From Gammaproteobacteria bacterium (lineage in GTDB: Bacteria; Pseudomonadota; Gammaproteobacteria; Steroidobacterales; PWYM01), in assembly GCA_007693855.1 (NCBI GenBank), contig RECU01000053.1:62001-126000 (forward strand): a DNA stretch of 64,000 nt, in the 5' to 3' direction. Under the pieces are notes generated by a model that saw nothing but the letters and a program-made list of their open reading frames with translations, was not told the origin of the DNA and did not search any database. A program made the translations under genes and the position numbers. Numbering within the stretch: the first letter of the stretch is position 1; each line of letters starts with the position of its first letter. This document shows, in pieces, positions 34,844-37,607 of the stretch.

Positions 34844-34869
34844 CCGGCCCGCGAACGCGGGCCGGAAAA
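34844..34869 (-). terminator. Rho-independent terminator after iscA
   Basis: A 9-bp perfect stem CCGGCCCGC/GCGGGCCGG with a 4-nt loop is flanked on both sides by A/T runs. On the minus strand it ends in TTTTC. It closes the trmJ-iscS-iscU-iscA unit before ndk and could act in both directions. Confidence 0.8.
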
Positions 34870-34871
34870 AC

Positions 34872-35198
34872 TCAGACGCTGAAGCTCTCGCCGCAGCCGC
34901 ACTCCCCGGCAACGTTCGGATTGCGGAAACTGAAGGACTCGTTGAGCCCATCGCGCACGAAATCGACTTCGGTGCCGTCGATCAGCGCGAGCGCCTCACC
35001 GTCGACCACCACCTTTATGCCCTCGGCGCCGTCAAACACGATGTCGCCCTCGCCGACATCGTCAGCATAGTCGACCACGTAGGCGAAGCCCGAGCAGCCG
35101 GTTTTGCGCACGCCGAGCCGCAGGCCCACGCCGTGGCCGCGGCGGGCCAGATAGCCGCGCACCCGCTCGGCCGCGGAGTCGGTCAATGATATGGCCAT
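34872..35198 (-). CDS. iscA: A-type iron-sulfur carrier protein IscA
   Basis: A 108-residue HesB/IscA-family protein that carries or transfers Fe-S clusters. The three family cysteines are visible: one in [14 protein letters not shown] and two in GECGCGESF near the C-terminus. ATG at 35198 ([13 protein letters not shown]) was chosen. It follows the IscU-like gene by 15 bp and ends at a strong terminator. HscB, HscA and ferredoxin genes, which normally follow iscA, are absent. Confidence 0.93.
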
Positions 35199-35213: not shown

Positions 35214-35600
35214 TCAGTTGTCCTGCTCCGCGCGCAACACTTCCAGGCAGCGCCGCGCGGCATCCTCTACCAACAAAACCTGCCCGAGTTTCTCAACAGG
35301 CAGACCGAGTTCGGCGTGCAGCGCCCGCGGCTCGATGGCCGCCAGGGCCGCCGGCACACACCCCTCGAGCCGCTCACACGCGAGGTCGGCGGCGACCAAC
35401 AGCGCCGGGCACCCCAGCGCCCGAAAGCGCACTCGCGCGAGCGCACCATCGCGCTCGCCCGGCACCTGCCAGACCAGGATCTGTACGCAGCTCCCGCGCG
35501 CACGCTCCCCGGCCTCGCCCTGCGCCTCCGGAACATCCTCCGGCTGCGCGGCGTGGGCCAGCCGCCGAAACCGCTCAAGCACCGCGTCGGTATAGCCCAT
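35214..35600 (-). CDS. iscU: degenerate IscU-like Fe-S scaffold homologue
   Basis: A 128-residue protein, the exact length of E. coli IscU, and in the iscU position between iscS and iscA. The N-terminus (MGYTDAVLERF) and the C-terminal EDAARRCLEVL align with IscU. Two of three cluster cysteines are kept: C38 in GSC, and C64 in ALGCPAL. The third Cys and its adjacent His are replaced by Q107 and G106 (KLGQVLLVEDA, where IscU has KIHCSMLAEDA). The essential Asp after the first Cys is also lost. The LPPVK motif recognised by HscA reads LPVEK. Either it is a vestigial scaffold or it has a new sulfur- or cluster-transfer role. Confidence 0.82.
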   Translation of the reverse strand: MGYTDAVLERFRRLAHAAQPEDVPEAQGEAGERARGSCVQILVWQVPGERDGALARVRFRALGCPALLVAADLACERLEGCVPAALAAIEPRALHAELGLPVEKLGQVLLVEDAARRCLEVLRAEQDN

Positions 35601-35613
35601 GCGACTCAACAGT

Positions 35614-36825
35614 TTAACCCGAAGCCCCAGGCCTGTGCACGACTGCCGGTGCGCCCTCTGCCGGCGCAATCGGCCGCAAGCGCCTGAGTGCGGCAAAAAC
35701 GTCGACCGTCGCCCGGGCCAGCAGGCCTTCATCGGTGTCCCGGCCGAAGCTGAAGCGCAGCGCGGACTCGGCCAGCAGGTCGCTGCGCCCGAGCGAGCGC
35801 AACACATAGGACCCCTCACCGCTCGCCGAGTTGCAGGCCGACCCCCCTGACACCGCAACGCCCTCAAGCGCCAGGCGCAGACTCTCGCCGACCACCCCCT
35901 CAAAGCTCACGTTGAGGATCCAGGGCGAACCATGCTCGTCCAGGGGGCTGTTGCAGATCACCCCCCCAGCGGCTGCGAGTGCCTCCCAGAATGCCAGCCG
36001 GAGCCCCTGCAGACGCCTGTACTCGCGCTCGCGACGCTGCGCCGCAAGCACCAGCGCCTCGGCCATCCCCACCACCTGGTGAGTCGCCAGCGTTCCCGGC
36101 CGCAGCGCCCCCTCCTGGCCACCGCCGAACAGCAGCGGCTCGATCCGCCGCCTGGCCGCCGGTGAGAGCACCAGCGCCCCGACGCCCTTGGGGCCGTTCA
36201 CCTTGTGGGCATTGATCGACAACAGATCGACCGCCAGTGACTGCAGATCAAGCGGCAGCTTGCCGACACTCTGCGCCGCGTCGACATGCAGCGGCACCCC
36301 AGCCTGGCGACAGACCGCGCCGAGCGCAGCGATGTCGTTGATCGCGCCGGTTTCGTTGTTGACGTGCATCAGCGACACCAGCACCGTGTCTTCCCGCAGG
36401 GCATCAGCCAGCGCGTCGGGAGTGATGCGCCCCAGGGGCCCGGGGTCCAGCCGCGTCACGCTGAACCCCTCATGCTCCAGCCGATCCAGCGCATCGAGTA
36501 CTGCACGGTGTTCGGTTTTGCTGCTGACCACATGGCGTCCCCGCCAGGCACTTCCCCGCGCGACGCCGAGCACCGCGAGATTGTCCGACTCGGTGGCACC
36601 GGAAGTGAAGATCACCTGCGCCGGCGCTGCGCCGACCACGCCTGCGATCTGCGCGCGCGCCCGGGCGACGAGCGCCGCGGCGCGGCGACCGGCGACATGA
36701 CCCGTCGAGGACGGATTCGCGCAAAGGGCCGGATCCGAAAGCACCGCATGCATGGCCGAGATGACTTCCGGCGCGAGCGGTGTCGACGCGGCATGGTCGA
36801 GGTAGATCGGAGTGACGGCGCTCAT
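35614..36825 (-). CDS. iscS: cysteine desulfurase (IscS-type)
   Basis: A PLP enzyme that takes sulfur from cysteine as a persulfide. It has 403 residues. The N-terminus is PIYLDHAASTPL, the PLP lysine is in SINAHKVNGPKG, and the active-site Cys is in GSACNSASGEGSYVLRSLG. The long mobile loop is that of group I desulfurases. The start overlaps the trmJ stop (ATGA), and iscU follows 13 bp later. No iscR lies upstream, unlike the usual isc operon. Confidence 0.94.
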   Translation of the reverse strand: MSAVTPIYLDHAASTPLAPEVISAMHAVLSDPALCANPSSTGHVAGRRAAALVARARAQIAGVVGAAPAQVIFTSGATESDNLAVLGVARGSAWRGRHVVSSKTEHRAVLDALDRLEHEGFSVTRLDPGPLGRITPDALADALREDTVLVSLMHVNNETGAINDIAALGAVCRQAGVPLHVDAAQSVGKLPLDLQSLAVDLLSINAHKVNGPKGVGALVLSPAARRRIEPLLFGGGQEGALRPGTLATHQVVGMAEALVLAAQRREREYRRLQGLRLAFWEALAAAGGVICNSPLDEHGSPWILNVSFEGVVGESLRLALEGVAVSGGSACNSASGEGSYVLRSLGRSDLLAESALRFSFGRDTDEGLLARATVDVFAALRRLRPIAPAEGAPAVVHRPGASG

Positions 36826-37607
36826 GGGCCCTGCCGCCGTCGGCGGGCGGCCTCGCCTGCCGGGTCCACCGCCGAGAGGATGCCGCGCAGGATATTGAGC
36901 TCCTGCTCGTCAGGCCGAGCCCGGGCATATAGCCTGCGCAATCTGCGCATCAACTGCCTGGGTTGTGCGGGATCGAGAAAGTCGCTGTTGATCAGCACCT
37001 GCTGCAGGTGCGCATAGAAGCGCTCGAGATCTTCCGCGCGCGCCGGCGGCACGTCACGCTCTGCCGGTGCGCGGGCCTCTCCGAGCCAGGCGAGGCGCAG
37101 TTCGTAGACCAGCAACTGCACGGCCATGCCAAGATTCAGCGAGCTGTAGACGGGATTCGCCGGGATATTCACCAGTACCTGACAGCGGTCCAGCTCCTCG
37201 TTGGACAGGCCGGATTTCTCGGTGCCGAACAACAGCGCCACCGGGCACTCGCGAGCGCTCTCCAGCAGGACCGCAGCCGCCTCACGGGGCTCGAGCTGGG
37301 GCCAGGCGACACTGCGCAGCCGCGCACTGGTCCCCATCACCAGGCCGCAGCCCGCCAGTGCCTCATCCAGCGTTGCGCACACCCGCGCCGCCGTCAGCAG
37401 GTCGTCGGCGCCCGAGGCGCGAGCCGCTGCCTCTTCATGGGGAAACTCCCGGGGGGCAACCAGTACCAGTTCGCGCAGGCCCATGGTCTTCATCGCCCGG
37501 GCCGCCGCCCCGATATTGCCCGGGTGGGTCGTGCGTATCAGCACGATCCGCACGGGCCAGGGCAGCCAGTCACGGGTCTCGGCGGGGCTCGGCGCTTCGC
37601 GGGTCAT
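36822..37607 (-). CDS. trmJ: tRNA (cytidine/uridine-2'-O) methyltransferase TrmJ
   Basis: A 261-residue SPOUT (TrmH-family) enzyme that 2'-O-methylates position 32 of tRNA. Motifs seen are VLIRTTHPGNIGAAARAMKTMG (motif 1), LLFGTEKSGLSNEELD (motif 2) and NPVYSSLNLGMAVQLL (the knot, motif 3). ATG at 37607 (MTREAPSP) was chosen. There is no SD, and a -10-like TAGAAT ends 8 nt before the ATG. It is divergent from suhB with only 20 bp between start codons. In Pseudomonas trmJ is followed by cysE and iscR; here it runs straight into iscS. Confidence 0.94.
   Translation of the reverse strand: MTREAPSPAETRDWLPWPVRIVLIRTTHPGNIGAAARAMKTMGLRELVLVAPREFPHEEAAARASGADDLLTAARVCATLDEALAGCGLVMGTSARLRSVAWPQLEPREAAAVLLESARECPVALLFGTEKSGLSNEELDRCQVLVNIPANPVYSSLNLGMAVQLLVYELRLAWLGEARAPAERDVPPARAEDLERFYAHLQQVLINSDFLDPAQPRQLMRRLRRLYARARPDEQELNILRGILSAVDPAGEAARRRRQGP

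Follow-up and report, generated by a model that had tools for sequence, protein, structure and literature searches.

A cysteine-deficient IscU at a gammaproteobacterial isc locus, probably retained for another role in the handling of sulfur

The window, i.e., the whole stretch of 64,000 nucleotides analyzed here, encodes an IscU-like protein of 128 residues, hereafter IscU′, on the minus strand at 35214..35600, between iscS and iscA. On balance, we favor the view that this protein is the IscU that the trmJ-isc locus has inherited vertically, retired as a scaffold and kept as a partner of IscS, most likely as a persulfide acceptor with a single cysteine. That is, the gene has probably been retained because it now serves sulfur handling in another way. 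It is no single-genome oddity: the loss of cluster ligands is shared across a large group of related bacteria. Most of the genomes studied are MAGs.

The identity of the gene was established from its translation, profile matches, a family alignment, a structural model compared with the PDB, and dN/dS ratios. Its product matches the Pfam family NifU_N with 25.5 bits, just passing the cut-off of 22, and scores 30.5 bits against the NCBIfam iscU model (TIGR01999), far below the equivalog cut-off of 192.4 bits. An AlphaFold2 model computed with 25 homologues is confident (mean pLDDT 96, pTM 0.90) and shows the IscU fold; in the PDB it matches human ISCU and E. coli IscU (3lvl_A) best, with TM-scores of 0.84-0.86, and SufU far less well. 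The IscU homologue named at this place by the initial annotation is thus borne out by the NifU_N match and the confident IscU fold, with its strand corrected to minus. A length exactly that of IscU had also been taken as an argument against decay. This equality is a coincidence, resulting from a shorter N-terminal loop together with a longer hairpin, and the homologues of IscU′ range from about 112 to 156 residues. The GC3 of the gene, 0.82, is the same as that of its neighbors. A search of the window genome for a second, canonical IscU found none.

In a plain protein search, the window protein finds homologues in 44 of 59 relatives, and the degenerate pattern described below recurs in all 44. 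Reading of the iscS loci, together with weak NifU_N matches, adds divergent members in families f10, f12, f13 and f14. Named members in public genomes belong to the Woeseiaceae, the Steroidobacteraceae, unclassified gammaproteobacterial MAGs, and an isolate called Thioalkalivibrio sp. XN8.

The gene is part of a compact unit, trmJ-iscS-iscU′-iscA, with short gaps and with all four genes on the minus strand. trmJ (36822..37604) overlaps the start of iscS by 4 bases (ATGA). iscS (35614..36825) encodes 403 residues, with the catalytic His, Lys and Cys intact and a C-terminal tail unlike that of E. coli. iscA (34872..35198), which like iscS was assigned by profile and alignment, retains all three cysteines and probably starts with the ATG at 35198, behind AGGAGG. 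The unit is closed by a good intrinsic terminator between iscA and ndk, in which 9 G-C pairs are followed by TTTT (34844..34865, minus strand). Across 124 loci, as far as each extends, the same gene set is kept, namely suhB, trmJ, iscS, iscU′, iscA (lost in L008), ndk, rlmN, pilW, rodZ and hisS; iscR, hscB, hscA and fdx were sought within the same extent of these loci, and none was found. E. coli has the same suhB/trmJ-isc arrangement. Thus, the window locus is orthologous to this isc operon and has lost some of its parts. An origin of iscU′ from SufU was also considered, and is ruled out by this synteny and by the fold, whose best match is IscU. In relatives, SufU is encoded by a separate gene beside sufBCDS (loci L177 and L189; for example in G001, of the same genus). 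In the window genome itself (G000), the suf cluster (contig C73, locus L178) runs off the end of the contig inside sufS, so its sufU has probably been cut off.

IscU′ lacks most of the residues that hold the cluster in IscU. C64 (codon 35409..35411, minus strand), recorded as kept in the initial annotation, is indeed present and equals C63 of E. coli, whose numbering is used below for the family. No other cysteine is invariant. C64 is part of the family motif G-C-P-(H) and is found in 44 of the 44 relatives gathered without motif bias and in all 114 distinct homologues. The third ligand cysteine and its histidine had been described as lost, and they are: according to the translation and the family alignment, H105-C106 is replaced by G106-Q107 in the window protein (35280..35285, minus strand), the glycine being found in 104 of the 114 distinct homologues and C106 in 5. 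The aspartate, D39, is gone as well, with S37 in its place. The initial annotation erred over C38 (codon 35487..35489, minus strand), which it regarded as the retained first ligand. C38 coincides with C37 of E. coli only in an ungapped pairing. In the within-genus alignment (RG-SCV-QILV, RG-AAV-ELLV, and CG-DVM-KLQI in E. coli), R35 takes the place of C37, S37 that of D39 and C38 that of V40, the hairpin containing an insertion; in one homologue (L004), G38 and C63 are exactly as far apart as in E. coli. Among the 114 distinct homologues, C38 is present in 3 genomes only, all of the window genus, and position 37 is never Cys, nor position 39 Asp. A role of C38 as a retained ligand is therefore ruled out by the alignment, and the window protein retains one of the three cluster cysteines rather than two.

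Scanning with F[RKQ]A[YW]GCPH, or with a second pattern just downstream, supplied 80 of the 124 loci; because these patterns favor GCPH, the C-P-H counts of the large set are inflated, being partly built in. The other 44 came from the plain protein search, and in this unbiased set C63 is present in 44 of 44, followed in all 44 by P64, which is Gly in canonical IscU, and then in 32 by a His, which is Ala in the window protein. P100 is likewise found in 44, a basic residue at position 103 in all (41 Lys and 3 Arg), and G38 and F11 in 41 each. C37 and D39 are found in none, H105 in 3 and C106 in 5. Positions 105 and 106 have a new family consensus, namely G105 followed by R/K106. The relatives that retain C106 are confined to two families, with four in f16 and one in f7, so C37 and D39 were probably lost earlier than C106.

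Degeneration extends to the site recognized by the chaperone HscA. In place of LPPVK, the window protein has LPVEK (L100-P-V-E-K104; 35289..35303, minus strand), as the initial annotation had read; by the translation and the 44 relatives, the Leu, the first Pro and the Lys are kept and the second Pro and the Val are lost. Position 101 is Ala, Val, Thr, Asp, Leu or Arg in the 44 relatives, and Pro in none. The second Pro of LPPVK fills the cleft of HscA, and a review calls the motif invariant across all species (PMC9596805); in the window order it is broken. The motif is thus divided by function: the Pro of the HscA pocket is lost in 44 of 44 relatives, and the Lys that touches IscS stays. The best match to the HscA profile in the window genome has a DnaK-like score, 637.6 bits against a cut-off of 708.6, and the best match to hscB scores 26.6 bits against a cut-off of 46.75, so that no match exceeds either cut-off. 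HscA passes its cut-off in none of the 59 relatives (profile search). The absence of hscBA is therefore upheld, at the locus and, as far as profiles can tell, in the window genome; and no relative with HscA carries the degenerate form.

The initial annotation had proposed that motif and chaperones were lost by correlated evolution. Part of this proposal stands, in that the loss of the motif accompanies the absence of hscBA in the relatives, and canonical IscU tracks hscB almost one to one more widely. Among 124 sampled Gammaproteobacteria, hscB exceeds its cut-off in 55 genomes. A canonical-scoring IscU, i.e., a NifU_N match over 130 bits, is found in 53 of these 55 and in 3 of the 69 hscB-negative genomes (Fisher p 9e-29, a value that ignores kinship). 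Two genomes, G167 and G177, have HscB over the cut-off and no NifU_N match; in G177, hscB lies at the start of a contig. The three hscB-negative genomes with a NifU_N match over 130 bits are G063, in which a weak hscB match adjoins IscU; G178, in which the match lies within an open frame of 303 residues resembling a long NifU; and G086, a reduced genome of 0.9 Mb. The IscU of G086 (L203) is canonical (C-D-C-H-C, LPPIK) and its neighbors are iscS, iscA, fdx and iscX, in a genome with neither hscB over the cut-off nor SUF. Judged on hscB, G086 weakens the absence of hscBA as a sufficient cause, and on this point the proposal needs amending.

The distribution of SUF offers a better account. Apart from a genome that is 82% complete, the relatives all contain SufB/D (58 of 59), and SUF is present in 12 of 12 genomes with degenerate IscU tested outside the order. 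No SUF was found in the five genomes with canonical IscU that were tested (G086, G063, G064, G162 and G128). Because G086 is canonical without hscB and without SUF, and because degenerate genomes have SUF, SUF takeover correlates better with the degeneration of IscU. These data suggest that IscU becomes free to degenerate once SUF takes over, rather than through loss of the chaperones alone, and that chaperone loss went along. It was already known that ISC and SUF are mutually exclusive in Gammaproteobacteria (PMC10631705).

In the crystal structure of the E. coli IscS-IscU complex, IscU makes contact through Y3, Y11, G38, V40, K42, K59-G64 and K103, and the mutation K103E abolishes binding (PMC2854127); Cys63 of E. 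coli IscU can form a disulfide with Cys328 of IscS (cited in PMC2854127). In the IscU′ family, the residues at these contacts are conserved with an average of 3.2 bits, versus 1.9 bits for the rest of the protein (permutation p 5e-5), and positions 37, 39, 105 and 106 agree with E. coli in 2%. On the side of IscS, the catalytic residues H104, K206 and C328 are kept in 109 of 109. Its helix 309-316, which contacts IscU, matches E. coli at 0.94 versus 0.76 for the rest of the protein at canonical loci, and at 0.69 versus 0.54 where IscU has the C63 form; where IscU is gone, the values are 0.45 versus 0.48. Similarly, residues 379-385 of IscS match E. coli at 0.65 alongside IscU′ with C63, versus 0.35 where IscU is gone. 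The far C-terminal part, 386-404, is not conserved, which speaks against docking; in E. coli, IscU no longer binds after a deletion that includes this part. At one locus (L008, 1480-2300, in G031), iscA has been lost, and iscS and iscU′ are followed directly by ndk. Taken together, the conserved contact residues, the pattern of the IscS helix, and the iscU′ that stays with iscS at this locus point to IscS as the partner of IscU′.

These data lead us to propose the following mechanism. The clusters would be made by SUF, which comprises SufBCDS and, in relatives, a SufU of its own; iscR, hscB, hscA and fdx are gone from the isc locus. IscU′ has shed C37, D39, H105, C106 and the HscA-binding core of LPPVK, and has kept the fold and the IscS-docking face, i.e., Y3, F11, G38, the strand end F58-P64, and K103. 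We infer that it binds IscS through this ancestral interface and accepts a persulfide from IscS on C64, within the motif GCP[H]. It might then hand the sulfur on, or bias the output of IscS, as a one-cysteine carrier like SufE or TusA would.

Inside and outside the order, IscU forms a series from canonical through C63-only and C63-less forms to absence of iscU. All 28 canonical loci have C-D-C-H-C with K103. C63-less proteins occur in f12 and f14, which belong to the window order, and in G062, G069, G079, G082, G094, G169 and others; two of f14 (L180, L182) contain no cysteine at all and are encoded between iscS and iscA. iscU is missing between iscS and an adjoining iscA in L191, L194, L198, L201, L205, L208, L209, L216, L218 and L223, often with iscR upstream. 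On a tree of IscS, the canonical loci form one supported group, and parsimony requires 12 changes for the C63-less state, of which well supported branches force at least 5; these counts are approximate, the tree being a quick one with several long branches. Pairs within f12 nevertheless have dN/dS ratios of 0.18-0.32, and the pair L182/L183 has 0.09, with saturated dS. Since f12, f14 and several others are still under constraint without C63, the sulfur-carrying cysteine is dispensable for whatever function is common to all forms. The cysteine-free members argue that this common function would be the binding or control of IscS.

The same members, and the repeated loss of C63, favor a rather unlikely reading, according to which IscU′ is a cysteine-independent regulator or stabilizer of IscS that occupies the IscU site and either controls the mobile Cys loop or keeps other acceptors out, C64 being structural only. 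Competition on IscS has precedent, as E. coli IscU and TusA compete for it, and TusA raises IscS activity about threefold (PMC11302665). However, C63 and a basic residue at 103 are invariant in the 44 unbiased relatives, and with the new Pro after it C63 resembles an active residue rather than one for packing. Moreover, the IscS-contact residue K103 and other contact residues are lost too in some C63-less lineages, which speaks against this reading and also against the docking that we favor. For the window protein we therefore retain the one-cysteine persulfide acceptor.

It is improbable that IscU′ is a functionless relic, slowly decaying now that SUF has taken over, and that its retention across the order reflects slow loss only. 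The graded series would fit such a decay, as would the other lineages in which iscS and iscA stand without iscU. So would a relaxed dN/dS: in most other pairs the ratio of iscU′ is 0.2-0.45 (typically about 0.3), above both iscS (about 0.1-0.2) and iscA (mostly 0.03-0.2) in most of the same pairs, all by the Nei-Gojobori method, which is rough at the present GC content. Within the window genus, however, the ratio is 0.13-0.22, indicating purifying selection. The matched stretches of the 44 relatives from the protein search, in which decay would have left stops, contain no internal stop, and with dN/dS well below 1 a pseudogene is ruled out. C63-P64, P100 and the basic residue 103 are invariant over the relatives, and G105 and R/K106 form a new consensus rather than random drift. 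Slightly more improbable still is a metal or cluster bound at a reconstructed site, formed by C64, H66 and the E/K of the loop or by two subunits that share a cluster, for although GCPH sets a new His beside the Cys in 32 of 44 relatives and E111-D112 is retained, two of the three ligand cysteines have been lost along with the ligand His and D39, the window protein has Ala where this new His would stand, and SUF is present.

Tentatively, and reasoning from sequence, these proteins may represent a broad gammaproteobacterial class of "pseudo-scaffold" IscU turned into dedicated IscS adaptors after SUF takeover, with a single-cysteine sulfur relay in most of the order, cysteine-free regulators in several lineages, and possibly a replacement of TusA-type delivery to tRNA thiolation. 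Trp45 of IscS, on which TusA stacks in E. coli, is found in 27 of 27 canonical loci versus 2% in the C63 form; sulfur delivery to tRNA thiolation may thus be arranged differently. The natural series from full scaffold through one-cysteine and cysteine-free forms to gene loss separates the scaffold role of IscU from its role as IscS partner, a separation usually made with point mutants. It provides ready-made separation-of-function proteins for asking which IscU cysteine is the first to accept sulfur, and whether cluster-free IscU has a regulatory effect on IscS. It also carries a warning for annotation: degenerate genes score as NifU_N and may be counted as an ISC system where none exists.

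Among known systems, IscU itself (TIGR01999, NifU_N) is the closest to IscU′, which resembles it in fold and length class, is likewise encoded between iscS and iscA, and shares its IscS-contact residues, C63, P100 and K103. It differs from IscU in lacking C37, D39, H105, C106 and the P-V of LPPVK, and in that HscA and HscB are missing from the genome. SufU, a sulfur acceptor working with a cysteine desulfurase in Gram-positive bacteria, has the NifU_N fold too, but in the relatives its gene belongs to the suf cluster and it retains both C-x-D and C63, whereas IscU′ is encoded at the isc locus. SufE/CsdE is a one-cysteine sulfur acceptor with an IscU-like fold that docks on a desulfurase. Its cysteine, however, lies at a different place of the fold than C64 of IscU′, no sequence match between SufE and IscU′ was found, and its partner is SufS, while the proposed partner of IscU′ is IscS. 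TusA, a one-cysteine sulfur acceptor of IscS with a Cys-Pro at the acceptor site, has another fold and another site on IscS, and the W45 of IscS on which it stacks is nearly always absent in the C63-form lineages. We found no description of a cysteine-deficient IscU at an isc locus in the open-access literature searched. Thus, the family, fold and locus of IscU′ are already known, and what is new is the form, a retired scaffold that putatively binds IscS.
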